From positions 1-36,517 of the IMG/VR virus record IMGVR_UViG_3300010151_007864: 36,517 nucleotides of DNA; one strand, 5' to 3'. Below, in pieces: positions 2,023 through 27,900 of this stretch (its first letter is position 1; every line of letters starts with the position of its first letter). The notes beneath the pieces were generated by a model. It did not search any database. It was given only the letters and a program-made list of their open reading frames with translations, and had not been told where the DNA came from. This DNA is from a virus. The position numbers and the translations under genes are program-made.

Positions 2023-3294
2023 ATGGAAGAAAAGAGAATAAAAGTCCTTACTCTGGGTGATATGCCTTTGAGTACATCTGGTGTTGGCAATCAGACAAAG
2101 TATGTAATTGAGGCATTGCTTGCAAGCGGTAAGTTTGAGGTATTTTCACTTGGCGGCGCAATGAAGCATCCACAATATCAGCTTATAAAAACAGATAAGT
2201 GGGGAGACCTTTGGAAGATTTTACCAGTAGACCAATTTGGTACCAAAGAAATGGTGCGTTCAGTTGTTTGGCGCGAAAAGCCAGATATTGTTTGGTTTAT
2301 GACTGACCCGCGCTTCTGGGGTTGGTTATGGGAAATGGACAATGAAATTCGTCAAAACATTCCTATGGTATATTACCATGTATGGGACAATTATCCATAT
2401 CCAAAGTATAATAAGAAATTTTATGAAAGCAATGATGTAGTTGCAACAATTTCAAAACTTACGGACGATATTGTAAGAACTGTTGCGCCAGATGTTGAAA
2501 CACATTATATACCACATGCTGTAAATACAGATATCTTTAAAAAGTTAGATGATGAAATAGTGGATAAACTAAGAGAAGAAAACAAAGGGCCTGATGGTAG
2601 AAGCCTTTCTAATAGATTCGTTGCTCTTTTTAATAGCAGAAATGCACGAAGAAAGCACAGTGGTACTTTAATATTTTGGTTTAAAGAATTTTTAGAAAAA
2701 GTTGGGAATGATAATGCAGTTCTTCTGATGCATACGGAACCAACGGACCCAAATGGCCCTGATCTCATGCAGATAGTTAAAGATCTAGAGCTTGACAAGG
2801 GGCAAGTTTTGTTTTCAAGAGATAAGATTGATGAACAAAAAATGGCTACATTGTACAATCTTGCCGACGTGACTGTTAATATTTCTGATGCTGAAGGCTT
2901 CGGTCTATCGTGCCTTGAATCACTTGCTTGCGAAACACCGGTAGTTGGAGTTAGGACTGGCGGTCTTCAAGATCAATTAACTGATGGTAAAAATGTGTTT
3001 GGGGTGATGATTGAACCCTCATCACAACAAATAGTTGGTTCCCAGTTGGTACCATATGTCATGGAAGATAGAATTAATAAGCAAGATTTTCTTAACGCAA
3101 TACAGAAAATGTACGATGCTGGTAGGGATGGAAGAGCCAAAATAGGGCAACAAGCAAAAAAACATGTTTCAAAAAACTTTAACTTTGAGGATTTTAACAA
3201 TTCTTGGGTTGAGTTAATGTCATCAATATATGAAAAACATGGTTCCTGGGAGACAAGAAAGGATTATCAAAGTTGGAGGAATGAATCATTATGA
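2023..3294 (+). CDS. Glycosyltransferase, GT-B fold (GT4 family type)
   Basis: A 423-residue, full-length GT4-like enzyme. The N-terminal half carries a LTLGDMPLSTSGVGNQT stretch where these enzymes bind the acceptor (a GGxxxx-type loop). An IPHAVNTDIF segment at about 165-175 marks the domain linker. The C-terminal nucleotide-sugar domain carries DAEGFGLSCLE near residue 290, the E-x7-E motif of retaining GT4 transferases, followed by CETPVVG. It opens the sugar cassette and overlaps the next transferase by four bases (ATGA). A retaining transferase using an NDP-sugar in the host cytoplasm is a safe family-level call; donor and acceptor cannot be read from sequence. It does not resemble the T4 DNA glucosyltransferases. 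Confidence 0.88.
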   Translation: MEEKRIKVLTLGDMPLSTSGVGNQTKYVIEALLASGKFEVFSLGGAMKHPQYQLIKTDKWGDLWKILPVDQFGTKEMVRSVVWREKPDIVWFMTDPRFWGWLWEMDNEIRQNIPMVYYHVWDNYPYPKYNKKFYESNDVVATISKLTDDIVRTVAPDVETHYIPHAVNTDIFKKLDDEIVDKLREENKGPDGRSLSNRFVALFNSRNARRKHSGTLIFWFKEFLEKVGNDNAVLLMHTEPTDPNGPDLMQIVKDLELDKGQVLFSRDKIDEQKMATLYNLADVTVNISDAEGFGLSCLESLACETPVVGVRTGGLQDQLTDGKNVFGVMIEPSSQQIVGSQLVPYVMEDRINKQDFLNAIQKMYDAGRDGRAKIGQQAKKHVSKNFNFEDFNNSWVELMSSIYEKHGSWETRKDYQSWRNESL

Positions 3295-4574
3295 AAAAGA
3301 AAGTATTATTAGTAGGACCAATTTTAACACAATCTGGTTATGGCGAACATGCAAGAATGGTCTATCGTGCTCTTAAAAGCAGGGAAGATTTATTCGAAAT
3401 TTTTATTAATCCTGTTAACTGGGGTGCCACAAGCTGGACATCGGAAGATACAAAAGAAAGGCAAGACATCGATGAGCTTATAAACAAAACTTTTGCTCAT
3501 ATGAATCAAAAACTTCCTTTTGATACTACAATTATGGTGACTATTCCATCAGAATGGAAGCAATACAGAGCGGCCCCTGAAAATATTGGCGTTTGTGCAG
3601 GAATTGAATCAGATCGTGTTTCTCCACATTGGTTAGAGGCAGCAAATTTATTTGTTGATAAAATTATTGTCCCATCAGAATTCTCAAGAGAATCGTTTAC
3701 TAACGCTGTCTGGAACGTCAAAGATCAGGCTGGAAATGAAGTTAAACTAACAGTTCAAAAGCCAATTGAAGTAGTCCATTATCCTGTGGAAAAAGAGTTT
3801 ATGGAGCCTTCAACTTGTCTTCATAAAAATCTGAAGTTTAAACACAATTTCAACTTTCTTTGTGTGGCCCAGTGGGGACCAAGAAAAAACATTGAAGGCA
3901 CAATTAAATACTTTTTAGATGAGTTTAAGGACGATGAAGTTGGATTGGTTTTAAAAGTTTCGGTTAAAGACGGATCAACAATTGATTTCTATGAGACAAA
4001 AAGAAGAATAGACAACATCTTAGCAAAATACCCAGAAAGAACGTGTTCAGTCCATCTATTGCATGGGTACTTTACAAAAGAAGAACTAAGTTCTCTCTAT
4101 ACTCACCCAAAAATTAAGGCAATGATAAACTTTGGTCATGGGGAGGGATATGGATTGCCTCTTTTTGAAGCGGCAGCAGTTGGATTGCCCGTTATTACTC
4201 ATGATTGGGGTGGTCAAAAAGACTTTTTGTATGCACCAAAGAGAAATAAGAAAGGTAAGGAAAAGTTAAGACCGCACTTCAGTAAAGTATCGTTTGACCT
4301 AAAGCCAATTCAGAAAGAAGCTGTATGGGATGGGGTCTTACAACCAGAGAGTGAATGGGCTTATCCACACTGGGGTTCTTGCCAAATAGCAATGAGGCAG
4401 TGTTACGAGAACTATGGGTTGTGTTCTGGGCAGGCAAAGAGACTTAAGGATCAGGTTTTAAGCACATTCACCGAAGAAAAGATAAATGACTCTTTTGTCA
4501 ATATTATACACAATGAGGGCTTATTTGAAGTTGAAAAGTGGCTAGGGGACCTTGATCTAATAGACGAAGCTTAA
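3291..4574 (+). CDS. Glycosyltransferase, GT-B fold (group 1)
   Basis: A 427-residue protein with a GT-B layout. The N-terminus reads LLVGPILTQSGYGEHARMV, the usual Gly-rich acceptor-side loop. Around residue 190 is LCVAQWGPRKNIEG, the start of the donor domain with the Arg-Lys often seen near the diphosphate. Near residue 281, GHGEGYGLPLFEAAAVG is the E-x7-E-type motif of GT4 enzymes. TSWTSED and WKQYRAAPENIGVCAGIE segments resemble phage and LPS-cluster relatives. It overlaps the genes on both sides closely and must be co-translated with the preceding transferase. Specificity is unknown. An inserted Lys/Arg-rich stretch at about 315-330 (APKRNKKGKEKLR) follows the donor motif and is unusual for the family. 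Confidence 0.87.
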   Translation: MKKKVLLVGPILTQSGYGEHARMVYRALKSREDLFEIFINPVNWGATSWTSEDTKERQDIDELINKTFAHMNQKLPFDTTIMVTIPSEWKQYRAAPENIGVCAGIESDRVSPHWLEAANLFVDKIIVPSEFSRESFTNAVWNVKDQAGNEVKLTVQKPIEVVHYPVEKEFMEPSTCLHKNLKFKHNFNFLCVAQWGPRKNIEGTIKYFLDEFKDDEVGLVLKVSVKDGSTIDFYETKRRIDNILAKYPERTCSVHLLHGYFTKEELSSLYTHPKIKAMINFGHGEGYGLPLFEAAAVGLPVITHDWGGQKDFLYAPKRNKKGKEKLRPHFSKVSFDLKPIQKEAVWDGVLQPESEWAYPHWGSCQIAMRQCYENYGLCSGQAKRLKDQVLSTFTEEKINDSFVNIIHNEGLFEVEKWLGDLDLIDEA

Positions 4575-4575
4575 A

Positions 4576-5427
4576 ATGAAATTATTGTTAATATCTGATT
4601 TTTTTCTGGAGGACCTTCCATATGGCGGCGGCGCTGAATACAATGATCAAATATTATTTGAACTATTAAAAAATGCTGGTTATGATGTACAGAGAATCAA
4701 GTCGCATAACGCTGGACTTGACGCTCTTTCAAAAATAGATAATGATACGAAGATAATAATATCAAATTTTATTAACTTGTCAGAAAAAAGCAAAAGTTAT
4801 ATTCAACAAAAATTTTCATATATAATTTATGAACACGATCACAAGTATCTTAGAAGAAGAATTCCCTCGCTATTTTACAATCTAAAAGCGCCAAAAAGCA
4901 AAATAGTTAACTATTCTTTTTATAAAAACGCCACAACGGTCATTGCTCAGTCAGATTTTCATAAAAAAATAATCGATTTAAATATAGATACGGGCAATGT
5001 GATAAACCTTTCAGGCAACTTATGGTCTGATGAGGATTTTATAGAAATTGAAAAAAATATTCACGGCGATAAGTATAGTTTGTGTTCAATAATGGAATCT
5101 CCTCTTATAAATAAGGGTACAAAAAAGTCTATTCAATATTGTGAGAAAAAAAATATTAATTACGAATTAATATCTGATAAAAATTATTATAATTTTTTAA
5201 AAAAAATATCCAAAAACGAAAAATTAATTTTTTTACCAACAATACCTGAAACTTTTAGTAGAATATGTGTTGAAGCGAAGATGATGGGTTGTAAAGTTAT
5301 AACAAACGGATACGTTGGCGCAAAATATGAAGAGTGGTTTAACTCAGATCCAGAAGAGATCATTTCAGAAATGCGGACTACTAAAGAGAAAGTAGGTAAA
5401 ATAATATTAGAGAAATTTAATGACTAG
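4576..5427 (+). CDS. Short glycosyltransferase (GT4-like)
   Basis: A 283-residue protein, shorter than the usual 350-400 of GT4 enzymes. An N-terminal loop YGGGAEYNDQ (about 15-25) corresponds to the GGAE acceptor-side motif, and TIPETFSRICVEAKMMGCKVI near 221 is the donor-side E-x7-E motif. A YEHDHKYL motif near 85 is seen in related short transferases. A group-1 glycosyltransferase with a trimmed N-terminal domain is likely. The gene is extremely AT-rich: bases 5161-5220 hold only 8 G or C. It starts two bases after the previous stop and its end overlaps the next gene by eight bases. Confidence 0.75.
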   Translation: MKLLLISDFFLEDLPYGGGAEYNDQILFELLKNAGYDVQRIKSHNAGLDALSKIDNDTKIIISNFINLSEKSKSYIQQKFSYIIYEHDHKYLRRRIPSLFYNLKAPKSKIVNYSFYKNATTVIAQSDFHKKIIDLNIDTGNVINLSGNLWSDEDFIEIEKNIHGDKYSLCSIMESPLINKGTKKSIQYCEKKNINYELISDKNYYNFLKKISKNEKLIFLPTIPETFSRICVEAKMMGCKVITNGYVGAKYEEWFNSDPEEIISEMRTTKEKVGKIILEKFND

Positions 5428-6331
5428 AGTTGTATTTTTAAAAAATAAGATTAAAGGCGCATGGGAACCAATTATAAAAGGATATCAGTCTGCGTTTGCT
5501 CATTTCAATTTTAAGGTTGAAGAGGTAGAAAATTTTAAAAATTTAGATGGGAATTACTTCTTATTTCTGAGAGAATGGGAGATTGAAGAGGGACACCTCT
5601 CAACAATAAGTCAATCAAAAAAGACTTTTTTGTTTGTACAACCCACACAATATGATTTGCCCTGGGGCAATCACCCTAATTTCATATCCAACTTGAAAGA
5701 ACCTCTAAGAAAAGAGATGGCATCATACAAAAATGTTTATAAGTGGACATTCGCTGACTTAAAAGATGAAAATTTTAAAAACTATTACTCTGATTGGGGT
5801 TTTGTGAATACTTTACCTTTAGCATTTGACAACTTAAATTATAAAAAAATATTAGACGAAAAATTTAGATATGATGTTTGTTTCATAGGTGGGTGGGCAA
5901 ACAATGGATTTAATGAAAAGAAGAAAATATTAATAGATACTTTTTCTGCTTTTGTGAAGTCGGATTTAAAGTGTGGATTCTTTATTAATAAGGCGATTTC
6001 TCACAATATAGAGAATAAAATATTAGCAAATAGTAAAGTTTGTTTGAACATTCATGATAAGTATCAAAGAGTTCACGGTCGAGATACAAACGAAAGAACT
6101 TTTAAATCTTTGGGTTTAAATGGAATAATGGTCTCAGACCAAATAGAACAACAAAATTGTCTTTTCCCTAATCTTAAAAATAGCAATGAACCACAAAAAA
6201 TACTGAAATATGTAAAAGAATATGTTAACATGAGTGAGAGTGAAAGACAGGACATCGCAAATGATAACAGAAAACTTGTTTTAGCAGGTCACACTTACAT
6301 CCATAGAGTAGGAAAAATGTTAGATGAATGA
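5420..6331 (+). CDS. CgeB-like glycosyltransferase
   Basis: A 303-residue protein. The C-terminal half shows DVCFIGGWANNGF near 155, SKVCLNIHDKYQ, then GRDTNERTFKSLGLNGI (about 220-236) followed by VSD. This Asn-x-Arg-x-Phe-Glu/Lys pattern, in which the protein is changed to a new sugar-nucleotide site, is typical of the CgeB / Glyco_trans_1_2 type of GT-B enzymes. The N-terminal half is divergent, with WEPIIKGYQSAFAHFNF resembling the acceptor-side helix. It overlaps both neighbours by eight bases, so it is part of a tightly coupled run of five transferases. Family call is moderate; donor and acceptor are unknown. Confidence 0.7.
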   Translation: MTRVVFLKNKIKGAWEPIIKGYQSAFAHFNFKVEEVENFKNLDGNYFLFLREWEIEEGHLSTISQSKKTFLFVQPTQYDLPWGNHPNFISNLKEPLRKEMASYKNVYKWTFADLKDENFKNYYSDWGFVNTLPLAFDNLNYKKILDEKFRYDVCFIGGWANNGFNEKKKILIDTFSAFVKSDLKCGFFINKAISHNIENKILANSKVCLNIHDKYQRVHGRDTNERTFKSLGLNGIMVSDQIEQQNCLFPNLKNSNEPQKILKYVKEYVNMSESERQDIANDNRKLVLAGHTYIHRVGKMLDE

Positions 6332-7058
6332 CGTAAAGTTTACAATAATAATTCCATGCTACAATAGTGAAAAATGGATCACTCAGTGTGTTTTATCCGC
6401 ACTTAAACAAACTTATAAAAATTTAGAAGTAATATTTGTTGACAACGAAAGCACAGATGGGTCAGTTGATTTAGTTAAGAAAATTCAATCTGAATACTCT
6501 GAACTAATGATGTCATCAGCAAAAAACATTTATAGGCACTCTTACCAGGAACCAGTAGAGGAAGCATTAAGACTTGCTTCGGGTGATTACTTTACTATAC
6601 TTGGATCAGACGACTATCTTGATGAAAACTATATTCAGAACATCTATAATATTTTGTCAAAAACAAATAAAATCTCTATTATGCAAAGTCCTTTATACTG
6701 TGTAAGGGAGTCAGAGAACAAAGTAGTGAATGTGATAAAACACCAGTATAAAAGTTTATCAGAATTTAAAGAAAAGTTGCTTCAAGGGTGCCCCGTTACA
6801 ACACCTTCAATAGTAGTTAAGAAGAAGTTATATGATGATGGTAAAGTTAAGTGGCGATCAGATATGTATTTAGGTGTATCAGATTATGAATTATATTTTT
6901 CACTGGCAGACCAAAACATTTTTATTTATCCATTTCCTAAATGGTTGGGATATTACTATAGATGGAACGATCAACAGAGTACATGGGGTATGCACCGCGA
7001 AGAGACAAAATATGATGTTTTGATAAGAGAAGAATGGCAAAAGAGATGGAAAAACTAA
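6324..7058 (+). CDS. Family 2 glycosyltransferase (GT-A fold)
   Basis: A 244-residue GT2 enzyme. It begins TIIIPCYNSEKWI, with the P-C-Y-N signature at 11-14, then ALKQTYKNLEVIFVDNESTDGS, the conserved QT...EIIVVDDxSTD segment. LASGDYFTILGSDDYLD (about 85-100) carries the metal-binding DxD equivalent Asp96-Asp97, and the C-terminal WGMHREET part is where the base or acceptor loop lies. It acts in the cytoplasm on an NDP-sugar, transferring with inversion as is usual in this family. It has no C-terminal membrane helices, so it is a soluble form. Its 3' end is overlapped by 25 bases by the first transketolase-like gene. Confidence 0.9.
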   Translation: MNDVKFTIIIPCYNSEKWITQCVLSALKQTYKNLEVIFVDNESTDGSVDLVKKIQSEYSELMMSSAKNIYRHSYQEPVEEALRLASGDYFTILGSDDYLDENYIQNIYNILSKTNKISIMQSPLYCVRESENKVVNVIKHQYKSLSEFKEKLLQGCPVTTPSIVVKKKLYDDGKVKWRSDMYLGVSDYELYFSLADQNIFIYPFPKWLGYYYRWNDQQSTWGMHREETKYDVLIREEWQKRWKN

Positions 7059-7681
7059 AAGAACGAATACTTGATATATGCTATGAGAATAAACTTTCAC
7101 ACCTTGGTTCTTATTTTTCAAGTGTGGGAATAATAGATAAAATTTATTCAGAAATGAAAAGTGATGATATTTTTATTTTATCGTCTGGTCATTGCGCCGT
7201 CGCTCTGTACGCAGTAATTGAAAAGTATAAGGGGGTTGATGCGAATGACTTGTTTCTAAAGCATGGTGGTCACCCCCACAGAGATGAAGAAAATCACCTT
7301 TTCTGCTCAACTGGGAGTCTTGGTATGGGTCTTCTTGTTGCTATTGGCAGGGCAATGGCAGATCCAAGTAGAGAGATATATTGTTTAATAAGCGATGGAG
7401 AGTGTGCTGAGGGGTCTATTTGGGAAGGTTTAAAATTTATTTACGAGAATAATCTTAAAAACATTAAAGTATATGTAAACATTAATGGGTATGCTGCTTA
7501 TGATACCGTGGATACTGATTATTTGTCAAAAAGGTTAAAAACATTTTTACCTGAAATAAATTTGGTTTACACAAGTGTAAACCAATTTGAATTTTTAAGC
7601 GGGTTAAATGCACATTATCATATAATGTCAGAAGAAGACTACCAACTAGCAAAAAGGGAAATAAATGAGAAAAGAGTTTAG
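7034..7681 (+). CDS. Transketolase-like ThDP enzyme, N-terminal subunit
   Basis: A 215-residue protein matching the diphosphate-binding (PP) half of transketolases. The landmarks run in order. SHLGS (His23) stands where transketolases have GHPG; ILSSGHCAVALYA carries His53; GGHP is at 78-81; STGSLGMG is at 92-99. SDGECAEGSIWE (120-131) is the Mg/ThDP motif, with Gly changed to Ser in GDGE, and a YVNINGYAAYD segment at about 147-156 completes it. It is shorter than the usual 270 or so residues of split N-subunits. The missing part lies before the C-terminal HYHIMSEEDYQLA segment. With the next gene it should form one ThDP active site. An alternative start is the ATG at 7046. It overlaps the GT2 gene by 25 bases and the C-subunit by 17 bases. 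Confidence 0.88.
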   Translation: MAKEMEKLKERILDICYENKLSHLGSYFSSVGIIDKIYSEMKSDDIFILSSGHCAVALYAVIEKYKGVDANDLFLKHGGHPHRDEENHLFCSTGSLGMGLLVAIGRAMADPSREIYCLISDGECAEGSIWEGLKFIYENNLKNIKVYVNINGYAAYDTVDTDYLSKRLKTFLPEINLVYTSVNQFEFLSGLNAHYHIMSEEDYQLAKREINEKRV

Positions 7682-8141
7682 TAAACTTCTTCATAGAGAA
7701 ATGGGCAAAAATGAAAATATTGTCCTATTAACAGGAGATTTAGGTTACGGACTGTGGGATAGGATTAGGATCGACTACCCCAACAGGTTTTGGAACGTTG
7801 GTTCTTCAGAACAACTATTATTAGGTGCTGCTGTAGGTATGGCAATGGAGGGAAAAATACCATTTGTATATTCCATAACACCTTTCCTGATATATCGTCC
7901 GTTTGAAGTTATTAGAAATTATATTGATCACGAACAAGTTCCAGTAAAACTTATCGGCGGCGGTAGAGATAGAGATTACGGTTATCTTGGATTTTCGCAC
8001 TGGGCTGAAGAAGATAAAAAAGTTATGTCGTGCTTTGAAAACATAAAAATGATTCACCCACAAGGCACTAAACAAATAAAAGCTGCATTGATGAGCAGCA
8101 TTAACGACAATTCTCCATACTACATTAATTTAAAGAGATGA
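7665..8141 (+). CDS. Transketolase-like ThDP enzyme, pyrimidine-binding subunit
   Basis: A 158-residue protein matching the pyrimidine (Pyr) domain of transketolase/DXS-type enzymes. VLLTGDLGYG is at 20-29. NVGSSEQLLLGAAVGMA follows, with Glu49 in the position of the catalytic Glu that activates ThDP. Then come GKIPFVYSITPFL, and GFSHWAEEDKKVM with His112, equivalent to the THHxxED loop. The protein ends just after the Pyr domain. The third, C-terminal domain of transketolases, which is not needed for cofactor binding, is absent, whereas typical split C-subunits have about 310 residues. AAGGGA five bases before the ATG is a good ribosome site inside the previous gene, favouring balanced production. 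It likely transfers a ketol group to a sugar; the substrate is unknown. Confidence 0.88.
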   Translation: MRKEFSKLLHREMGKNENIVLLTGDLGYGLWDRIRIDYPNRFWNVGSSEQLLLGAAVGMAMEGKIPFVYSITPFLIYRPFEVIRNYIDHEQVPVKLIGGGRDRDYGYLGFSHWAEEDKKVMSCFENIKMIHPQGTKQIKAALMSSINDNSPYYINLKR

Positions 8142-8974
8142 AAAAGATATTAGTAATTGCTGAAAATAGCTTTTTGGCAAAACAGATTAAAGACTACTTT
8201 TTTAACAGCGAGTATGACTTATGTTTTTCTACAAGAAAGGATTTTGATTTAACATCTGCCGAACAAACTCGTAAATTTTTTAATATTCGGTATTACGATG
8301 TCGTCATCAATTGTGCAATAAACGGCGGTGTTAGAGGCAGAGAAGACACTCTACAAGATTTTTTAAATAACATACAAATGTTTAAGAATCTTGTAGACAA
8401 TAGAGATGCTTTTGGCAAACTGATAAACTTTGGTTCTGGAGCAGAGTTTGACAGAGCATCAGAAATAAACGATTGTTCAGAGAACGAAATCTACGAGAAA
8501 AACCCAAAAGATTATTATGGATTGTCAAAAAACATCATAACCAAAGAAATATACAAGTATGATAAGCTTTTCAACATAAGAATATTTGGTTGCTTTGGCA
8601 TATATGAAAAAGAAAGTAGGTTTTTGAAGACAAACATAAAGAATGCTTTGAAAGGTGAACCTCTCATAATACATCAAGATAAATTTATGGATTTCATATC
8701 ATCAGATGATCTTTGTAAAATATTGAAATTTTATTTTGATAATGAGAAAGAATCGTTACCAAAAGACCTAAACGCTGTATATAAAAAAAAATATACTTTA
8801 AAACAGATGGCAAAAATGATAAAATCTAACTTGAAAAGTAAAAGCAAAATATTAGTTCAACAAAGAGAGATGGCAAACTCATACACTGGGAAATCGAACA
8901 AGTTAGATACTATGAATATAGAACTTTCTGGTTTAGAAAAAGAACTAAAAAACATTATTGGAAAATTTATTTAA
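8138..8974 (+). CDS. NAD(P)-dependent sugar epimerase/reductase-like SDR
   Basis: A 278-residue extended SDR of the WcaG/RmlD type. Visible parts are the N-terminal Rossmann beta-alpha unit (KKILVIAENSFLAKQI), DVVINCAINGG near 54-64, LINFGSGAEFD with Ser100, and YYGLSKN with the catalytic pair Tyr127 and Lys131. FMDFISSDDLCK lies near 185. The dinucleotide Gly motif GxxGxxG is changed to A8-x2-S11-x2-A14, which is unusual. The gene starts with a four-base ATGA overlap with the transketolase C-subunit, and its stop abuts the 3-dehydrase start. Context suggests reduction or epimerisation of a keto-sugar made by the neighbouring enzymes, but the reaction is inferred. Confidence 0.78.
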   Translation: MKKILVIAENSFLAKQIKDYFFNSEYDLCFSTRKDFDLTSAEQTRKFFNIRYYDVVINCAINGGVRGREDTLQDFLNNIQMFKNLVDNRDAFGKLINFGSGAEFDRASEINDCSENEIYEKNPKDYYGLSKNIITKEIYKYDKLFNIRIFGCFGIYEKESRFLKTNIKNALKGEPLIIHQDKFMDFISSDDLCKILKFYFDNEKESLPKDLNAVYKKKYTLKQMAKMIKSNLKSKSKILVQQREMANSYTGKSNKLDTMNIELSGLEKELKNIIGKFI

Positions 8975-10330
8975 ATGTTTGATCAAAAAAGAAAACAGAT
9001 ATTAGAACTTGTTTCTGAATATTATGAGGAAAAAAGAAGTAAGGATACTTGGAAACCCGGTACAGATTGGGTTTCTTATTCTGGTCTCAATTACGATAAA
9101 GATGAAATATTAGCAGCCGTAAAAGTGATACTTGATGACTTTTCAAACGATTGGGTAATTTTTGGTAAAAATAATAAGTTGTTTGAGATGCAGTTCCCAA
9201 AATATCTTGGAAAAAAGAGAGGCATATTAACTAATTCTGGCAGTTCTGCAAACTTGTTAGCCGTTTCATGTCTTAAATCAAAAAATACATTTTCTTTAAA
9301 AGAGGGTGACAAGTTTATAACCCCGGTAGTTTGTTTTCCAACAACAATAAATCCCATTATTCAAAATGGATTCAAGCCAGTTTTTGTTGATGTCGAACTA
9401 CCAAACCTAAATTTAAATTTAGATCAGGTTGAACAAAAATTAAAGGAAGATCCTGATATTAGGGGTATAATGTTTGCACATGTTTTGGGGAACCCTCCAG
9501 ATATGGAGCGATTAATGAATCTCGTAGAAAAATATGATCTAATTTTTATAGAAGACGCTTGTGATGCTCTTGGATCTACATATAATAATAAAAAGCTTGG
9601 TTCATATGGGCACATATCCACTTGTTCGTTTTTTCCTGCACACCACATGTCCATGGCTGAGGGCGGCTTTGTCGCCACTAATAGCGGAAAAATACGAAAG
9701 TCTTTAGCAAGTTTTCGCGACTGGGGGAGAGCTTGCTATTGCAACGATATCAAGCCCGGTTGTGTGATCGATGGCACAGCCTGCGGTAATAGGTTCAAAG
9801 CTTGGTTTGATAAAATGCCAGAGGCTATCTACGATCATAGATATGTTTTTGATGAAATCGGATATAATTTAAAACCTTTAGATCTGCAAGGGGCAATGGG
9901 TCTTGAGCAGTTAAAAAAGCTCCCTGCCATGGATTCTGCGAGGAGAGAAAACTTTACTAAATTAAAAAACATCTTCTTAAAGTATGAAAAACATTTTCAT
10001 TTACCGTATGCTACTAAAAACTCTGATCCTTGTTGGTTTGGATTCCTTTTAACTTTAAAAAAAGATTGTGTTTTTGATAAACAGGAATTTGTAAACCACC
10101 TTGAAAAAAACAAAATTCAAACGAGATCTTATTTTACGGGGAACGCATTAGCACATCCAGCTTATGAGAAGCTGTCAGCGGATTATGACGATATAACAAA
10201 ATCATTCCCAGTTGCATCTTATGTTACAGGCAATACTTTTTTTCTTGGAACTTACATAGGCATAACAGATGAGAAGATTGAATACATACAAAAAGTTGTT
10301 GATTCATTTTTCAAGGAGCAGAAATTATGA
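8975..10330 (+). CDS. rfbH: NDP-4-keto-6-deoxyhexose 3-dehydrase (RfbH/E1-like)
   Basis: A 451-residue member of the DegT/DnrJ/EryC1 aminotransferase fold, close in length to the 437-residue Yersinia E1. The PLP-binding Lys is replaced: SFFPAHHMSMAEGG places His223 where E1 has its His. The 2Fe-2S cysteines are also kept: Cys196 (EDACDALGS), then exactly 57 residues, Cys254, one residue, Cys256, and a later Cys270 (TACGNRF). The last spacing is 13 instead of 7 because of short insertions; Cys263 lies between. Such enzymes remove the C3 hydroxyl of a 4-keto-6-deoxy sugar nucleotide using PMP and electrons from a reductase. ColD-type dehydratases share the His but not the cluster, so RfbH/E1 fits better. 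No reductase partner lies in the window. The next gene overlaps by four bases. Confidence 0.9.
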   Translation: MFDQKRKQILELVSEYYEEKRSKDTWKPGTDWVSYSGLNYDKDEILAAVKVILDDFSNDWVIFGKNNKLFEMQFPKYLGKKRGILTNSGSSANLLAVSCLKSKNTFSLKEGDKFITPVVCFPTTINPIIQNGFKPVFVDVELPNLNLNLDQVEQKLKEDPDIRGIMFAHVLGNPPDMERLMNLVEKYDLIFIEDACDALGSTYNNKKLGSYGHISTCSFFPAHHMSMAEGGFVATNSGKIRKSLASFRDWGRACYCNDIKPGCVIDGTACGNRFKAWFDKMPEAIYDHRYVFDEIGYNLKPLDLQGAMGLEQLKKLPAMDSARRENFTKLKNIFLKYEKHFHLPYATKNSDPCWFGFLLTLKKDCVFDKQEFVNHLEKNKIQTRSYFTGNALAHPAYEKLSADYDDITKSFPVASYVTGNTFFLGTYIGITDEKIEYIQKVVDSFFKEQKL

Positions 10331-11277
10331 AGGTGGTATATATCACAGGCTGTTTAGGCTTTATAGGCTCCTATGTGACCCGTAGATGCCTTGAAAAAGG
10401 TTGGATGGTATATGGAGTCGATAAATGCACTTACGCAGCTAGTATCGAATCCTTGAAGGAATTTGAGAAATGTAAAAACTTCGCTTTTGAAAAAATTGAT
10501 ATTAAGGATATGACTCACCTATATGACTGTGATTACATTATTAACCTTGCTGCGGAATCGCATGTCGGTAATAGTATCGTCGATAGTAAGAAGTTTTTGG
10601 ACAGCAATGTCGCTGGTACACAAAATTTATTGGAATTAATAAGGCATAAACAAGAAAATTGCAACGAGAGACCAATATTTTTTCACTTTAGTACTGATGA
10701 AGTTTATGGTGATATTGATGATGGCTTCCATAAAGAGGACGACCTTTTAAAGCCAAGCAATCCTTATTCAGCAGCTAAAGCAGCAGCGGACATGCTGGTT
10801 TATGCTTGGGCAAGAACTTATAATGTAAAATATATTATTTTGCGACCTACCAATAATTATGGAATAGGGCAATATCCAGAAAAGCTTATTCCTTTAGCAG
10901 TTAAAAATTTAGTTCGTGGTAAAAAGATTAGATTACATGATGGTGGAAAGCCAATTAGGACTTGGTTGCACGCAGATGACACAGCCAGAGCAGTTATAAA
11001 AATTATTGAATCAAGACAAACCAACAAAATTTTTAATGTATCTGGCGGTTTTGAGCAAAATAATCTGACAACTGTCTCACAAATATTAAAAAGTTTCTTT
11101 AAAAGCAAAATTGATATTGATGATTATGTTGATTTTTCTTATAATAGAACTGGTCAAGATATTAGATATGCTTTGGATGATGAACGTTTGAGATCTATTG
11201 GCTGGGAGCCAAAAAGACGGTTTGATGATGAAATAGGAGAAATTGTTAAATTTTACAAAAACAATTTTATATGGTGA
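10327..11277 (+). CDS. rmlB: dTDP-glucose 4,6-dehydratase-like SDR (RmlB type)
   Basis: A 316-residue extended SDR. It shows G8-x2-G11-x2-G14 in ITGCLGFIGS, YIINLAAESHV, FHFSTDEVYGD with the catalytic Thr123-Asp124-Glu125 triplet of RmlB, and NPYSAAKAAAD with Tyr147 and Lys151. RPTNNYGIGQYPEKLIP and IRTWLHADD are further RmlB signatures. It would convert an NDP-glucose, classically dTDP-glucose, to the 4-keto-6-deoxy form, which is the substrate class of the 3-dehydrase it overlaps (ATGA). The CDP-glucose dehydratase signature (TSDKCY) is not present, so a dTDP or UDP donor is more likely. No RmlA, RmlC or RmlD follows, so it is not a complete rhamnose operon. Confidence 0.87.
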   Translation: MKVVYITGCLGFIGSYVTRRCLEKGWMVYGVDKCTYAASIESLKEFEKCKNFAFEKIDIKDMTHLYDCDYIINLAAESHVGNSIVDSKKFLDSNVAGTQNLLELIRHKQENCNERPIFFHFSTDEVYGDIDDGFHKEDDLLKPSNPYSAAKAAADMLVYAWARTYNVKYIILRPTNNYGIGQYPEKLIPLAVKNLVRGKKIRLHDGGKPIRTWLHADDTARAVIKIIESRQTNKIFNVSGGFEQNNLTTVSQILKSFFKSKIDIDDYVDFSYNRTGQDIRYALDDERLRSIGWEPKRRFDDEIGEIVKFYKNNFIW

Positions 11278-11287
11278 ATTTTATAAA

Positions 11288-12217
11288 ATGATTATTACAG
11301 GTGGTACAGGGATGGTGGGCTCTGCATTTAAGCGAATTTTACCAGAAGCAGAATATCCGAATCGTTTTCAATTAGAGGATATGACTAGGAATGCTTATTA
11401 CAAGGGGAATTTTACTGATAAGCAAGTAATCCACCTTGCAGCTAAAGTGGGCGGCGTGAAGGCAAATACCGAGCAAGTTGCCAACTTCTATATGGAGAAT
11501 GCCAATCTAAACGAAAGAATTCTATATTCGGCGCATCAAACAGGAGCAAATAAAGTCCTTTCGCTCTTATCAACTTGTGTTTATCCAGACGCTCCATACA
11601 TTAACTACCCGCTCACAGAAGACCAACTACATCTTGGACCACCGCACCATTCTAATTTTGGCTACGCCTATGCAAAAAGGATGGTTGATGTTATGTCCAG
11701 AGCTTATAGGCAGCAATACGGTTGTAACTTTATTACAGCAATCCCAAACAATCTTTACGGCGAGAATGACAACTTTGATTTAGAAAACAGCCATGTTATT
11801 CCGGCGCTTATCCGCAAGGTTTGGGAGGCTAAAATAAATAAAGAACCTTCTGTATTCTGCTGGGGCGATGGCTCACCACTTCGTGAGTTCACATACTCAG
11901 AAGATATTGCCCGTATTCTCCTATTCTTGATGGAAAACTACGATGAACCAGAACCAATCAATATTGGTAACACAGATGAATATTCCATCAAAGAAATTGT
12001 AGAGATGATATGCGATATTCTAGGATACGATGGTGAGCTAGAGTGGCAAACAAACCAGCCATCTGGACAACATAGAAAGCCAAGTTCAAACCAAAGGTTG
12101 CTTGACTTGGGGTGGAAAAAAGAATATTACATATCGTTAAAAGAAGGTTTAAAAAAGACTTGTGATTGGTTTATAATAAATTATCCAAAGGTTAGAGGTG
12201 TTAAAAATGGATTATAA
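11288..12217 (+). CDS. fcl: GDP-L-fucose synthase-like epimerase/reductase
   Basis: A 309-residue SDR from the ATG at 11288. An upstream ATG at 11243 would add 15 residues before the Rossmann strand and is less likely, because MIITGGTGMVGS is the natural N-terminus. G5, G8 and G11 form the NADP motif. LSTCVYP has Ser95 and Cys97, GYAYAKR has Tyr126 and Lys130, and NSHVIPALIRK has His169. These match the Ser-Tyr-Lys triad plus the Cys and His acid/base pair of GDP-fucose synthase. It would epimerise C3/C5 and reduce C4 of GDP-4-keto-6-deoxymannose, the product of the GDP-mannose 4,6-dehydratase two genes downstream. A colitose-synthase-type reaction is a possible alternative given the 3-dehydrase in the same cluster. 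Confidence 0.88.
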   Translation: MIITGGTGMVGSAFKRILPEAEYPNRFQLEDMTRNAYYKGNFTDKQVIHLAAKVGGVKANTEQVANFYMENANLNERILYSAHQTGANKVLSLLSTCVYPDAPYINYPLTEDQLHLGPPHHSNFGYAYAKRMVDVMSRAYRQQYGCNFITAIPNNLYGENDNFDLENSHVIPALIRKVWEAKINKEPSVFCWGDGSPLREFTYSEDIARILLFLMENYDEPEPINIGNTDEYSIKEIVEMICDILGYDGELEWQTNQPSGQHRKPSSNQRLLDLGWKKEYYISLKEGLKKTCDWFIINYPKVRGVKNGL

Positions 12218-12833
12218 GTCTCAAATAGGACAAGATAGATTTGTGACAGAGGTATTAAATAACAAGTTAAATGGCTATTTTGTGGATATTGGAGCAGGTC
12301 ATCCAAAAGAAATAAACAACACTTTTTATTTAGAAAAGAAGCTGGGTTGGAATGGTTTGTCTATCGACATGGGTCCAGAGAATGAATTTTGTCACATTGA
12401 GGCTGGAACAACTAAACATGAGTTTTTAAACTTATGGGAAACTACAAGGTCAAGTGAATTTGTTTGCGGGAATGCTTTAAAATTAGACTACGAAAAATTA
12501 TTTGATGAGAGGTCTGTACCAGAGACAATAGATTATCTCTCCATAGATTTAGAGCCTGCTGATATAACATATGAGTGTTTATTAAAAATTCCTTTTGAAA
12601 AGTATAAATTTAAAATTGTAACTTTTGAACACGATCTATATAGAGATCCAGAAAACAACATCAAATATTTAAATGGGGCAAGAGACTTTTTAAAGAAGTT
12701 TAATTTAGTCCCGTTAAATGTTAAAAAGTTTTTGAAAAGCTGTGGATATGATACCCATAGAATATCTATACAAGAAGATTGGTTTTTAAATGTAGAGTTA
12801 CTCAAAAAAGATAGCAAGCTCAAGGTATTATAA
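12207..12833 (+). CDS. FkbM-like methyltransferase
   Basis: A 208-residue protein. YKSQIGQDRFV near the N-terminus, GYFVDIGAGHPKEINNT (the SAM-binding motif I) and LGWNGLSID are typical of the FkbM / Methyltransf_21 group, whose members O-methylate sugars or small metabolites. IDYLSIDLEPADITYE and FKIVTFEHDLY follow, as in those enzymes. I chose the ATG at 12207, preceded by AGAGG at 12194-12198, over the GTG at 12198. The start overlaps the fucose-synthase-like gene by 11 bases. Lying between two GDP-sugar genes, it probably methylates the sugar made or transferred by this cassette; the exact position is unknown. Confidence 0.8.
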   Translation: MDYKSQIGQDRFVTEVLNNKLNGYFVDIGAGHPKEINNTFYLEKKLGWNGLSIDMGPENEFCHIEAGTTKHEFLNLWETTRSSEFVCGNALKLDYEKLFDERSVPETIDYLSIDLEPADITYECLLKIPFEKYKFKIVTFEHDLYRDPENNIKYLNGARDFLKKFNLVPLNVKKFLKSCGYDTHRISIQEDWFLNVELLKKDSKLKVL

Positions 12834-12834
12834 A

Positions 12835-13827
12835 ATGAAAACGGCACTTGTTAGTGGAATCACGGGACAGGATGGCTCATATTTAGCAGAGTTCTTACTA
12901 CGCAAGGGTTATTTCGTTGTTGGTTTGAAAAGAAGAACTTCTCTTATTTGTACAGAACGAATAAATAGTGTCTATAATAATCCTAACTTTAAAATGGAGT
13001 ATTGGGATTTAAATGACTCTTCCGCAACTTATCGCTTGTTGTTAAAATATAAACCTGATGAATTCTACAACTTGGCGGCACAATCCCACGTTAGAGTTTC
13101 TTTTGATATACCAGAGGATACCGTTTCTGGTATTGTGAATGGAACACTTCGCATTCTTGAGGCGATAAGAAATGTTCATCCAAAATGTCGTTTCTATCAA
13201 GCTAGCTCCTCAGAAATGTATGGTGATAATCCAAATGTGCCTGAGATTGGATACAATGAAGAATCGCGACTTACACCAGCTTCGCCATATGCCTGTGCAA
13301 AGGTGTTCGCTCATAACTTAGTCCGCAATTATCGAACTTCTTATGGTTTGCACGCTTCAAGTGGTATTTTGTTCAATCATGAATCACCAAGACGCGGAGA
13401 AACTTTTGTAACGAGAAAAATTACATTAGCAGCGGCAAATATCAGGTTAGGGCACCAATCCAACATCGAATTAGGAAACCTTTCTGCAAAAAGAGATTGG
13501 GGACACGCTAAAGATTATGTAAGAGCAATGTGGCTCATGTTACAACAAGAAGAACCAGATGATTATGTTATTGCCACTGGCGAAACATACTCAGTAAAAG
13601 AATTTTTAGATGAGGTTTGGACTTGTGCAGAGCTTGGTAATCCAACAAAACATTTAAAAATTAACAAAAAATATTTTAGACCACACGAAGTACCTTATCT
13701 TTTAGGCGATAGTTCAAAAGCAAGAACGGTTCTTGGGTGGGAACCAAAGTATAATTTTTCCTCTCTAGCAGGGGATATGTATTTAAGCGATTTTAATCGC
13801 ACAGTTTCAGAAAAAGGATGGAAATAA
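12835..13827 (+). CDS. gmd: GDP-mannose 4,6-dehydratase
   Basis: A 330-residue extended SDR with the full GMD signature. GITGQDGSYLAEF has G8, G11 and G14; LKRRTS is the NADP phosphate site. NLAAQSHVRVSFDIP and ASSSEMYG follow, with Ser125-Ser126-Glu127 at the catalytic Thr/Ser-Glu position. SPYACAKVFAH has Tyr152 and Lys156, and GILFNHESPRRGETFVTRK is diagnostic of GMD. Length is normal for the family. It makes GDP-4-keto-6-deoxy-D-mannose, the substrate of the upstream fucose-synthase-like enzyme, so the pair could supply GDP-fucose or feed the 3-dehydrase. GC content is clearly higher than in the transferases upstream (29 of 60 bases at 13261-13320), suggesting separate acquisition. Confidence 0.95.
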   Translation: MKTALVSGITGQDGSYLAEFLLRKGYFVVGLKRRTSLICTERINSVYNNPNFKMEYWDLNDSSATYRLLLKYKPDEFYNLAAQSHVRVSFDIPEDTVSGIVNGTLRILEAIRNVHPKCRFYQASSSEMYGDNPNVPEIGYNEESRLTPASPYACAKVFAHNLVRNYRTSYGLHASSGILFNHESPRRGETFVTRKITLAAANIRLGHQSNIELGNLSAKRDWGHAKDYVRAMWLMLQQEEPDDYVIATGETYSVKEFLDEVWTCAELGNPTKHLKINKKYFRPHEVPYLLGDSSKARTVLGWEPKYNFSSLAGDMYLSDFNRTVSEKGWK

Positions 13828-13828
13828 A

Positions 13829-14020
13829 ATGAAATTATCAGATCAAGCATTGGGAGCCGTAATGATGGCTTTACAAAAATCATTGTTAGAGCAAACAGAC
13901 ATTGTTCCAGTTTTAAAGGGCTTCAGCTTTGTAATCCAGGGTGATTCCCAGGATGAGTTGGCAGTGACAAACCCACCAACATTTAAATTAGATGAGTTTA
14001 ACGATGCAGAAGATAGTTGA
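13829..14020 (+). CDS. Small hypothetical phage protein
   Basis: A 63-residue protein starting one base after the gmd stop. Its N-terminal half (KLSDQALGAVMMALQKSLLEQ) looks like an amphipathic helix, then DIVPVLKGFSF, and an acidic C-terminus (LDEFNDAEDS). There are no cysteines or membrane segment. I recall similar short proteins with an LGAVMMALQKSL-type helix in marine T4-like phages, but no function is known to me. The tight fit between gmd and the cupin gene supports that it is translated. Confidence 0.65.
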   Translation: MKLSDQALGAVMMALQKSLLEQTDIVPVLKGFSFVIQGDSQDELAVTNPPTFKLDEFNDAEDS

Positions 14021-14360
14021 GAAGCCCTGGGGTCATGAAAACCTCATTGTTCATACTGATAAATATGTTATGAAAAAGCTGTTCATCAAAGCAGGGCAGC
14101 GCCTTTCAAGGCAGTTTCATGTCCAGAAAGACGAAACAGTGTATGTCAGTCAAGGGACGCTTCTTTTAGATTTATCAAGGAGCGACAACGAAAGCAACGT
14201 TATAAAGCTCAAGGAGGGTAAATCTTGGAGAATTACACCAAACACAATTCACAGATTTACAGCACCGGACGATCAAGACGTTGTATTATATGAGGTTTCA
14301 ACGCCAGAATTAGACGATGTTATTCGTCTTTCTGATGATTACGGAAGAGCAAATGCCTAA
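14004..14360 (+). CDS. Phosphomannose isomerase-type cupin
   Basis: A 118-residue single-domain cupin. VEKPWGHE at residues 5-12 is the hallmark of the C-terminal (type II) mannose-6-phosphate isomerase domain. It is followed by LSRQFHVQKDETVYVSQG, whose His39 and Glu44 are likely metal ligands, and TIHRF with His83. It probably interconverts fructose-6-phosphate and mannose-6-phosphate, feeding GDP-mannose and so the gmd step. In bacteria this domain is often fused to the guanylyltransferase ManC, which is absent here. The start at 14004 has GAG seven bases upstream; an ATG at 13992 would add four residues. The gene overlaps the small protein before it by 17 bases. Confidence 0.8.
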   Translation: MQKIVEKPWGHENLIVHTDKYVMKKLFIKAGQRLSRQFHVQKDETVYVSQGTLLLDLSRSDNESNVIKLKEGKSWRITPNTIHRFTAPDDQDVVLYEVSTPELDDVIRLSDDYGRANA

Positions 14361-21599: not shown

Positions 21600-23396
21600 A
21601 TGGCAGATAAGAAAACAAAACCAGTAAAATACTCTAGCAAAGAATTTGACTCTATTAAAGATTCTCTGGTTAATTATGCAAAAACATATTACCCCGACAC
21701 TTTTAAAGATTTTAATGCGTCATCTTTTGGTTCACTTATGTTAGATACTGTTGCTTATGTTGGTGACATGTTATCTTTCTATATTGATTATCAAACAAAT
21801 GAAAGTTTTGTTGATAGTGCGATTGAGACAAAAAACTTATTAAAAATTGCTAAACAGTTTGGATACAAAAATCCGTTAGCATACTCTGCGAATGGAAAAG
21901 CAGTTTTTTATGTTCAAATTCCAGCAAATTCTGATAAGACTCCAGATACAAATTTAATTCCAGTGTTAAAAGAGGGGTCAACCCTTTCCAGTAATAATGG
22001 AATTTCACTTATTTTAACTTCAGATGTCGATTTTAATAAATCTGACGCAGAAGTTGTTGTGGCTCAAGTGGATGGAAATGGAGATCCAACTTCTTTTGCC
22101 TTTAAAGCACATGGTGATGTAATAACAGGATTGATAAAGACTGAAATTTTGACAGTCGGAAATTATCAAAAGTTCTTAAAATTGTCTTTATCAGACAGCA
22201 ATATTACAGAAATTATTTCTGTTGTTGATTCCGAGGGCAATGAGTATTATGAAGTCCCCTATCTGTCCCACAATGTTTCATTACAACCGATAAGGAATCC
22301 AAGCAAGAGCGGCGATGAAGATGCCCCATACATTCTTAGAGAAAAACTGGCGGCAAGAAGATTTACAACAGATGTCGATGAAGATGGGACTGTGGCACTG
22401 CAATTTGGGTATGGCTCTGAAAATAGTCTCAAGGGCAATGAATACCCAGAACCAGCGTCAGCGGCTTTACAGAGGTATGCTCGCGATTATTATTCTGATG
22501 ATAGTTTTGACCCGTCTGTCTTGCTAAAAAATGATAAGTTTGGAGTTGTTCCGCCCGCAGGTGACTTGATAATTAATTATAGAAAAAATGATCAAAGCAC
22601 TGTTAACATTCCAATTGATTCGGTTAATTCAATAACAAATGCAGTTTTATCGTTTCCGAATACCGATTCGGTATCAGGTGAAAATTTATCTTTTATCGAA
22701 GACTCCTTGGATGTAGAAAACGAAGAGCCTATCCTCGGTTCCTCAGACAATCTTGTGCCAGAGGAAATAAGAATACGAGCGTTAGATGCCTATTCCGCAC
22801 AGAATAGAGCAGTGACACAGCAGGATTATATAAGCCTGATCTATAGAATGCCATCTAAATTTGGTTCAATTAAAAGGGCAAACATTGTACAAGATAAAGA
22901 CTCTTTTAAAAGAAATTTAAACCTATATGTCTTGTCACAAGGTTTGGATAAAAATTTAACAACGTCAACATCAACTACGAAAGAAAATTTAAAGGTTTGG
23001 CTAAATCAGTACAAAATGATTAATGATACGATTGATATTTTAGATGGTCAAATAGTTAATTTTAGTATAAAGTACAAAGTATTGGGAGCATTAGACTCTA
23101 ATCAATCCGAAGTTTTAGAGCAGTGTAACAGAGCTTTAAAGAATTTTTATAATACTCAACTTCTTTTTGGAACGCCTTTTTACATATCAGAAATTTATAA
23201 AATTTTGAATGATCTTGATTCTGTTGTTGATGCACAAGATGTGCAAATTGAACAAAAATTTGGTGCAAATTATAGCGGATATGCCTTTGACATTGAAGGG
23301 GCAACAACAGACGATGAAAGATTTATTATAATCCCAGAAAATGTTGTGTTAGAATTAAAGTTTCCAGATGAAAATATTATTGGAGTGGTGGTCTAA
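21600..23396 (+). CDS. 6: Baseplate wedge protein gp6 (gpJ-like)
   Basis: A 598-residue protein, close to T4 gp6 (660). The N-terminus has SSKEFDSIKDSLVNYAKTYYPD, then NASSFGSLMLDTVAYVGDMLSFYIDYQTNES (about 40-71), the best conserved segment of gp6/gpJ wedge proteins. LVPEEIRIRALDAYSAQNRAVTQQDYISLI near 380-410 is also diagnostic. The C-terminus is beta-rich with EIYKILNDLDSVVDAQDV. Gp6 dimers connect wedges into the baseplate ring. It overlaps the next gene by one base. Confidence 0.93.
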   Translation: MADKKTKPVKYSSKEFDSIKDSLVNYAKTYYPDTFKDFNASSFGSLMLDTVAYVGDMLSFYIDYQTNESFVDSAIETKNLLKIAKQFGYKNPLAYSANGKAVFYVQIPANSDKTPDTNLIPVLKEGSTLSSNNGISLILTSDVDFNKSDAEVVVAQVDGNGDPTSFAFKAHGDVITGLIKTEILTVGNYQKFLKLSLSDSNITEIISVVDSEGNEYYEVPYLSHNVSLQPIRNPSKSGDEDAPYILREKLAARRFTTDVDEDGTVALQFGYGSENSLKGNEYPEPASAALQRYARDYYSDDSFDPSVLLKNDKFGVVPPAGDLIINYRKNDQSTVNIPIDSVNSITNAVLSFPNTDSVSGENLSFIEDSLDVENEEPILGSSDNLVPEEIRIRALDAYSAQNRAVTQQDYISLIYRMPSKFGSIKRANIVQDKDSFKRNLNLYVLSQGLDKNLTTSTSTTKENLKVWLNQYKMINDTIDILDGQIVNFSIKYKVLGALDSNQSEVLEQCNRALKNFYNTQLLFGTPFYISEIYKILNDLDSVVDAQDVQIEQKFGANYSGYAFDIEGATTDDERFIIIPENVVLELKFPDENIIGVVV

Positions 23397-24921: not shown

Positions 24922-27900
24922 ATGGGTACAAAAAGTTTTTTTAATAAGCAAAAGTCACAAGAAGTAAAAATTCGCGGACAAAAGAAATCAACAATCGATA
25001 ATGTAAAGCAAAATGTCGAGTCTGTTGAATATATAAAAGAATATTCAATAGATAAGTTGGATTTTGCCCCTCAGCTTGATTTTGAAAATCCTGCAAACTT
25101 TGTAAAGTACGGTTCTGCTGAAGACTACTATGTAGATTTGGTGGATAGTGTCATTCAGGCATATCCATATGATGGATCTCTTGCGGAAAGATTAAAATAT
25201 CGCAATGGACTCGTTGCAATCCAAAAGCACGAATTTGATAAAAATTATCCAAGATCTGTTGGCTATGCCGACTTTGGGGATGAAAGCTTTCTTGCTTCGC
25301 TCGGTACACCGTTTACAGTAGGAGATATTACTTTTACTCTTGGTGAAAGTTCTACTGATCATTATATCATTACAGACAACTATTCAAATAATTTAGTTTA
25401 TAATGCCGGGTCACAACAGGTTGGAAGTATAGAAATCGACTTCTCTGTTGGTGCCACTGTTGAGTTATGGATGAAGAAGGATACTTTTCCAGATTCATCA
25501 GAAACCCAAAATGAAGTAGTCTTTTCAATTAGCAACACTGATCATACAATAAATGATCTATTTCAGATAACAACAGATGTTACAGGTTCGGGAAGAGAAA
25601 AATTATATGCTACTTTCTCTAAAACTGCGGCGTTTACACCAGAGTTTGTTTATGAATTTGATACTGGCATTTCGGGATCTACTGGGAATGGCTTGGCAGA
25701 TGGAAACTGGCACCACTATGCCTTTTCTTTCTCTACAAGCTCAACTGGTTATATTGGTGAATTTTATGTTGATGGACATTTTCGTGAGAAAAAATTCTAT
25801 ACCAAAGGTAGTCCCGATCATTATCTAACAGGGACATTGGACGCTACGGTTGGCGCATCTTCTTTAAGTGCCTATCTTGGTGATGGTGGTCTGCTCGGAT
25901 CTGTTGATGAAGTTCGCTTATGGAAAACTACAAGAAATGCTAAAGAAATTGGTATTAATTACTTTTATGATATCGGCGGCGGTGGTAATACTGATACTGC
26001 AAAGGTAAATGATAATAGCCCGCTTGGACTGTCTTTATATTATAAATTCAATGAAGGTAATACTGGAGTAACTGCAACTGACAGTATTGTGCTTGATTCC
26101 TCTGGTCGTCTAACCAATGGTGTATGGGTCGGCTACTCAGCCGGTTCAAGAGCGACCGGTTCAGCAATAATAGAATCAGGAACTACAACTGAGGTTGGCG
26201 ATCCAATTATCTATTCAACACATCCAAGTGTTGTTTCCTATAAGGCTGATAAGATTATTTCGGGTTCTGCATACGATGCCAACAACTTGGGCAGCACATA
26301 CAATATGATGCCGCAGTGGATAAGGGACGAGGACGCCGCCAACGGGCTTTTAATCCGTAAGATGACCCAAGTTATGTCGAGCTACTTAGACACGCTCTAC
26401 GGTCAAATTACGGCGATTACAGAGCTACAAGATGGTTCTTATGTTAGTGGCTCAAATGCGAAACCCAATCCTTTCTCAAAAAGAAATTTAACATCTTATG
26501 GGTTTGATATTCCTGATGTGTTTATTGACCCAGAAATTATCGAAGAGATTTATTTTAAAGACGAAAAAAGGCTTTATGAGGATAAACTTTTTAATTTAAA
26601 AAATTTAATCTTTCAAAATATTTTTAATAATTTAAATTATATCAACAAGTCTAAAGGAACTGAAAAGTCTTTCAGAAACTTATTTAGATGCTTTGGTGTC
26701 GATGATGAGCTTGTTCGATTAAATATGTATTCTGACAACCAGCAATACGAAATTAGAGAAAATTATGAAACTTCACAGATTAAAAGAAATGTTATTGATT
26801 TATCAGGATATAATGATGGTCAAAACAGAGAAGTTGTTTTATATCAGTTTGCCGATGCGACAAAAAACATTTCTGAAACTGGTGATAATGGATATATTCC
26901 ATCATCATCTAATGCCTATATCCCATTGACATTCGAAGGTCAGTTTCAGTTTCCAAAATTTGTAGATTTTCCAAACGGTTATTTAGACAAATTAACAAGA
27001 TCTTCTTTATTTGGTGTTCATAGTGCAAGTAACGATACTGCCCAGACAACGATTCCATCTGATGATTTATATTTTAAAGTATATGCAGATACAAATAGTT
27101 TAAATAAAACACAATTTACACTGGAGACTAATATTGCTTCGGTCGGTTCTTTAACCTCTTCTTTTTATGAAAATGTATATGATAACACAGAATGGACTTT
27201 TGCCGTTAGGACTAAGCCAAGAGAGTATCCATACGCTCAAGAGATTACAGCATCTGATGTATTCGATTTAGAATTTTATGGCGTAAATTATGTTGCAGGT
27301 TATAAACTACATGAATTTAGTACCTCCGCAGAAATTAACCTATCAAATGATATTGGTCAATTTATTACAGGGTCAAATAAAAGATTATACGTCGGCGCAG
27401 ATCGAGAAAATATAACTGGGTCTTTAAACTACAAATCCAATACAAGGGTGGTCTCTTCAAGAATTTGGTTTGATTATTTAACAAATATAGAATTAAGCAA
27501 TCATGCAAGAGATGTTAGTAGTTTTGGCCGTTTAAGCCCTTATAAAAATTCTTTTATTTTTGAGGGTCAAGAGTCAGAAAACTATATCCCAAAAATTGAA
27601 ACCTTGGCCCTTCACTGGAATTTTGAAAATATAACAGGTTCAAACTCAAGTGGTAAATTCTTAATTCAAGATACTACTTCAGGTTCTAATACTGATATAG
27701 ATAATCGATATGCGGCTGGCGACTACTCCAGATGTGTTGGAGCAAATTATAGTGGTCAAGGTGCGGGAGTTACAGCAGGCTCAACAAAAGTTGTAGATTT
27801 CTTATTTGTGGATGCAGCTAAACAACAGCTACCAGAAAACCTTTATAGTTCAGACTTGGTAGAGATTAGAGAAGGGGACGATAATTTATTTACCAGAGAA

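Follow-up and report, generated by a model that had tools for sequence, protein, structure and literature searches.

The window, that is, the whole 36,517-base stretch of viral DNA analysed here, carries no completeness estimate, so that absence of a gene from it does not amount to absence from the phage. The gene at 21600-23396 specifies a T4-like baseplate wedge protein with best relatives in Microcystis, uncultured and Flavobacterium phages (~30% identity), which confirms that the record derives from a tailed phage. Among the phage structural genes lies one for a 2913-aa protein (24922-33663) with a Laminin_G_3 (concanavalin A-like) domain.

Organization of the gene cassette

The gene at 8975-10330 (rfbH) is part of an uninterrupted plus-strand array, the first part of which is an operon-like run of glycosyltransferase-like genes (2023-7058). 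Matches to glycosyltransferase NCBIfam models fall in 2023-3294 and a Glyco_trans_1_2 match in 5420-6331, the remaining open reading frames of this run being assigned by eye from the sequence. It is followed by two genes for the parts of a split transketolase. The N part (TktN, 7034-7681) contains the ThDP-binding domain with its SDGE...N motif (NF004559, 85.7 bits), and it matches the N-terminal split transketolase of PDB entry 6yak (5e-10). The C part (TktC, 7665-8141) is a 158-aa protein with the pyrimidine-binding domain only, including the catalytic glutamate in an SSEQ motif (PF02779, 7e-17; PDB 6yaj, 1e-17). The two domains are thus on separate chains, and the third (C-terminal) transketolase domain was not found in TktC, for which Pfam gives only Transket_pyr and the match to 6yaj covers residues 38-193 of 341. 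An RmlD-like SDR-family sugar epimerase/reductase gene comes next (8138-8974; PF01370, 4e-16; PF04321, 2.5e-9), with its stop codon directly before the ATG of rfbH, and the 3′ end of rfbH in turn overlaps by 4 bases the start of a gene for an NDP-glucose 4,6-dehydratase of the dTDP (RmlB-like) type (10327-11277; TIGR01181). A separate GDP-sugar block on the same strand (11285-14360) encodes, by Pfam and NCBIfam matches, a GDP-fucose-synthase-like SDR, an FkbM-like protein, a GDP-mannose 4,6-dehydratase and a mannose-6-P-isomerase-type cupin.

Comparison with a 103.5-kb sister contig (L006) delimits the cassette. The block 7015-11278 is 94-100% identical in nucleotide sequence between the two, except at about 10265-10760, where identity drops to 87-88%; just upstream of the block identity is 60-81%, and homology is lost after position 11278, where the sister contig lacks the GDP-sugar block. 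A near-identical block between diverged or unrelated flanks suggests exchange as a unit, which appears to have been recent. The order of the genes recurs elsewhere: TktC is next to TktN in all 16 viral loci with TktN, the SDR gene follows in each of the 15 untruncated ones, and RfbH, full or edge-truncated, is present in 10 of the 16. The ThDP motif and the catalytic glutamate are kept in most relatives of TktN and TktC. A DNA-level search of phage records for the transketolase pair returned nothing.

A virus-specific lineage of RfbH/E1-type dehydrases

The rfbH frame is intact, starts with ATG and encodes 451 residues. Its product passes the curated RfbH model NF011936 (465.6 bits, cut-off 423), which is also matched by all 50 aligned members of the family, and its closest solved structure by phmmer is E1, the CDP-6-deoxy-L-threo-D-glycero-4-hexulose-3-dehydrase of Yersinia pseudotuberculosis (3bcx, E = 4e-97), well ahead of the GDP-4-keto-6-deoxymannose 3-dehydratase ColD (1.5e-54). 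An AlphaFold2 model, for which 50 relatives from viruses and bacteria were used, reached a mean pLDDT of 92.3, with a less certain cluster loop (53-78 for residues 251-290). In VIA-align the top matches of this model were to E1 (Z 52.9 and 52.8, rmsd 1.7-1.9 over 413-416 residues), followed by ColD (Z 47.7).

His223 faces histidine in wild-type E1 and lysine in the E1 H220K entry (3bb8) in the phmmer alignment, and is therefore the equivalent of the catalytic His220 of E1, which replaces the lysine of aminotransferases. Of the ten cysteines of the protein (99, 120, 196, 217, 254, 256, 263, 270, 353 and 365), Cys196, Cys254, Cys256 and Cys270 align with the four conserved cysteines of E1, that is, with the ligands of a [2Fe-2S] cluster. 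The spacing which the first-pass annotation had given for E1, Cys196-x57-Cys254-x-Cys256, is exact, and His223 does lie 27 residues past Cys196; a position of Cys270 off the cluster site, which that annotation would have taken as a refutation, was not seen. When 81 viral and 79 bacterial sequences were aligned together with three more from phages, every viral and bacterial row kept the histidine and the four cysteines (81/81 and 79/79); the short conserved peptides used as search patterns selected for C196 and H223 in viruses and for H223, C254 and C256 in bacteria, and conservation of C254, C256 and C270 in viruses is free of such selection. Fold, catalytic histidine and the four ligand positions of the phage protein are thus established by comparison, and the original reading of this gene as an RfbH/E1-like 3-dehydrase with complete cofactor residues stands: on sequence and model, it is a genuine member of this class.

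The phage protein and E1, or Salmonella RfbH, share their fold (rmsd 1.7 over 413 residues for E1), the catalytic histidine, the four cysteine positions with the x57 spacing and the RfbH equivalog model, but they are only about 40% identical, and the spacing before the last cysteine differs. The third and fourth cysteines are separated by 13 residues in the phage protein and by 11-13 in all viral rows, compared to 7 in E1 and in 67/79 bacterial rows. A displacement of the last cysteine by a short insertion had been noted from the sequence, together with the extra Cys263 within it; the insertion is real, but Cys263 is incidental. It was considered as an alternative cluster ligand and rejected, being present in only 7/81 viral rows. 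Another cysteine, Cys217 (9623-9625), six residues N-terminal of the catalytic histidine, occurs in 81/81 viral but only 12/79 bacterial RfbH sequences. ColD (PDB 2gms/3b8x) shares the fold and the catalytic histidine with the phage protein, but it has lost three of the four cluster cysteines and needs glutamate rather than a reductase.

Viral contigs contain at least 591 confirmed relatives of this protein, of which the best 80 are 49-99% identical to it, whereas the nearest bacterial sequences (best 80 of the bacterial collection) reach at most 45%. In a maximum-likelihood tree of the best 80 of each collection, which is not a random sample, the 81 viral sequences group together in a single clade (SH-aLRT 98). 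Its sister group consists of three phage sequences (from a Synechococcus phage, a marine virus and an uncultured phage) and one Nitrospirales contig, and the remaining 78 rows, bacterial and archaeal, fall apart from both. By these sequence comparisons, a virus-specific RfbH lineage, which the longer loop before Cys270 marks, is present in hundreds of metagenomic viral contigs. As a viral metabolic gene rfbH has already been listed (PMC10653327; PMC11295528), and the lineage with the longer cluster loop is a variant of that known kind.

Source of electrons for the phage enzyme

Enzymes of the E1 type need an electron donor, either an NAD(P)H-FAD-[2Fe-2S] reductase (E3/RfbI) or a ferredoxin system. 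The first-pass annotation had found no reductase in the window, which proved correct in searches for the Fer2 domain, the ferredoxin-reductase NAD domain (NAD_binding_1), flavodoxin, Pyr_redox_2 and a short reductase of bacterial type. The same searches gave no candidate in the 103.5-kb sister contig, the RfbH of which is 99% identical to that of the window. Among related viral records (31-230 kb, several near 200 kb), Fer2 was found in 0/45 and flavodoxin in 0/46, and weak Pyr_redox_2 matches, mostly below cut-off, were treated as chance or SDR-related. The reductase NAD domain exceeded its cut-off in 1/45 (G011), a contig that also has RfbH; its ferredoxin-NADP+ reductase-like protein (G011 31461-32244; L168:1411-2196), encoded about 4 kb away from that contig's glycan genes, scores 138.9 bits with NF008178, below the cut-off of 390, and was the only protein recovered from the 46 viral records with a profile of the bacterial short reductase. 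Two Synechococcus phages, S-H68 (L007) and S-B43 (L008), encode a sister-lineage RfbH together with a plant-type ferredoxin. The lack of a detected reductase does not set this phage apart; it is common to essentially the whole viral lineage.

Likewise, the majority of the 80 closest bacterial RfbH loci showed no linked reductase, and a scan for ferredoxin motifs, with two cyanophage ferredoxins and no E3 as positive control, gave 0/80. The notion that all these loci lack a reductase was nevertheless rejected. The G011 reductase used as a query, followed by a profile search, revealed a short FAD/NAD reductase of the FNR type (about 229 aa; e.g. L030:11318-12004) downstream of rfbH in 17/80 loci, in 13 of the 17 within 17 bases of rfbH or overlapping it. 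It has no Fer2 domain, and may be a cluster-free electron donor distinct from E3 and a candidate alternative to it. Its linkage to rfbH raises the possibility that some RfbH enzymes need a matched partner that hosts lack; near viral rfbH genes this type of reductase is absent.

For SpnQ, the dTDP-sugar 3-dehydrase of the spinosyn pathway, a general system is enough, namely a reductase paired with ferredoxin or flavodoxin, and ColD works without a reductase (PMC8987622). Compared by description rather than sequence, the phage enzyme resembles SpnQ in its expected PMP and [2Fe-2S] logic and dTDP substrate, although SpnQ belongs to secondary metabolism and its substrate is a 2,6-dideoxy sugar. 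The simplest reading of the sequence data is that the phage RfbH takes its electrons from a host reductase. The annotation had left the choice between a host reductase and one encoded elsewhere in the phage; with no candidate in the sister contig and one in 45 related contigs, the host is favoured and the second option less so, with the reservation that these records are fragments and a donor gene could lie outside them.

Taken together, we consider it reasonably probable that the gene specifies an active PMP- and [2Fe-2S]-dependent 3-dehydrase that would act on a dTDP sugar with electrons from the host, in a pathway with probable branching at C4 and placement of the product on a glycan. Against this, the phage may encode its own reductase outside the 36.5-kb window. 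The window is of unknown completeness, the reductase-like protein of G011 (NF008178, 138.9 bits) lies some 4 kb from a glycan cluster, and phages S-H68 and S-B43 do combine RfbH with ferredoxin; still, the absence of any candidate from the sister contig and from 44/45 related contigs, several of them near 200 kb, makes a phage-borne donor unlikely. Slightly less likely again is that RfbH works without a reductase, either as an aminotransferase with PLP and glutamate, a fallback that SpnQ possesses, or by hydrolysis in the manner of ColD (PMC8987622), to which the GDP-mannose dehydratase and fucose-synthase-like genes of the same array might seem to point. E1 and ColD, however, showed no transaminase activity under SpnQ conditions (PMC8987622). 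Both sequence and fold place the phage protein nearer E1 than ColD, its frequent partner dehydratase is of the dTDP and not the GDP type, and strict retention in viruses of three cysteines that ColD has lost is unexpected for an idle cluster; on these grounds of cysteines, fold and partner enzyme the use of a GDP sugar was rejected. That rfbH is a passenger gene in decay and now functionless, as the mosaic-looking position of the cassette might suggest, is very improbable given a full-length, translationally coupled frame and catalytic and ligand residues that are invariant in 81 viral proteins diverging to about 50% identity.

Nucleotide substrate and possible product of the pathway

The partner dehydratase points to the nucleotide. 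In the window it scores 297.6 bits with TIGR01181 and 77.6 with the CDP model, and as the curated dTDP cut-off (365.1) is not reached, the nucleotide is a prediction. Viral dehydratases matched dTDP models in 25/25 cases (best E 7.5e-99 vs 4.1e-23 for the CDP model), whereas the CDP-glucose model was the best match for 10/10 bacterial dehydratases beside RfbH; a dTDP-type dehydratase occurs in 64/80 viral RfbH loci. The phage set thus departs from that of E1 in its dTDP-type partner as well as in the lack of a detectable E3. An NTP-transferase match was present in only 2/46 viral records, one clear and RmlA-like and one weak, and the activated sugar is therefore probably also derived from the host.

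A pathway can be proposed from these elements. The downstream 4,6-dehydratase would produce dTDP-4-keto-6-deoxyglucose, which RfbH would condense with PMP, His223 driving loss of the C3 hydroxyl. Two electrons, passing one at a time through the RfbH cluster, would then reduce the bound glucoseen to dTDP-4-keto-3,6-dideoxyglucose; they would come from the infected cell by way of a ferredoxin or flavodoxin and an NADPH reductase, as SpnQ can use, rather than from a phage E3. After that, a two-carbon branch would probably be attached at C4 and reduced by the split transketolase and the SDR, and the sugar would be transferred by the glycosyltransferases to a glycan of the host or of the virion.

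The two-carbon branch at C4 is the least certain step, and is proposed by analogy with the YerE enzyme of yersiniose pathways and with split transketolases for which a role in keto-sugar branching has been suggested (PMC12247030; PMC4753412). As in yersiniose pathways, the phage ThDP enzyme adjoins a set of genes for making a 4-ketosugar, but YerE is a pyruvate-decarboxylase-type flavoprotein with a CDP-sugar substrate. Split transketolases of the miharamycin/amipurimycin type share with the phage pair the division into two genes and the proposed action on keto sugars; all 13 listed in a review are from Streptomyces, and acceptance of ketosugars by transketolases is a proposal without demonstration so far (PMC12247030). 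The phage pair differs from them in being shorter and in missing the third transketolase domain. These analogies suggest a C4-branched 3,6-dideoxy sugar as the product of the cassette. The branching step is not obligatory, since the TktN/TktC pair is within reach in only 14/80 viral RfbH loci and some transketolase cassettes lack RfbH within 6 kb. Across the viruses, then, the pathway probably builds an unusual surface sugar, which is possibly branched. More tentatively, a widespread phage lineage may possess its own dTDP route to C4-branched 3,6-dideoxy sugars that relies on a virus-specific, host-fed RfbH and a minimal two-domain split transketolase accepting ketosugars.

The surfaces of bacteria carry branched and 3,6-dideoxy sugars as immunodominant and receptor-relevant decorations. 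A virus-specific RfbH lineage with a dTDP-type dehydratase, joined in a subset of loci by a split transketolase, offers enzymes with which glycan remodelling by phages can be tested. It is also a natural case of a reaction whose redox half the virus apparently entrusts to its host. A limited literature search found no paper on viral RfbH joined with a split transketolase. The minimal split transketolase, of 215 + 158 aa, occurs in at least 16 viral loci.
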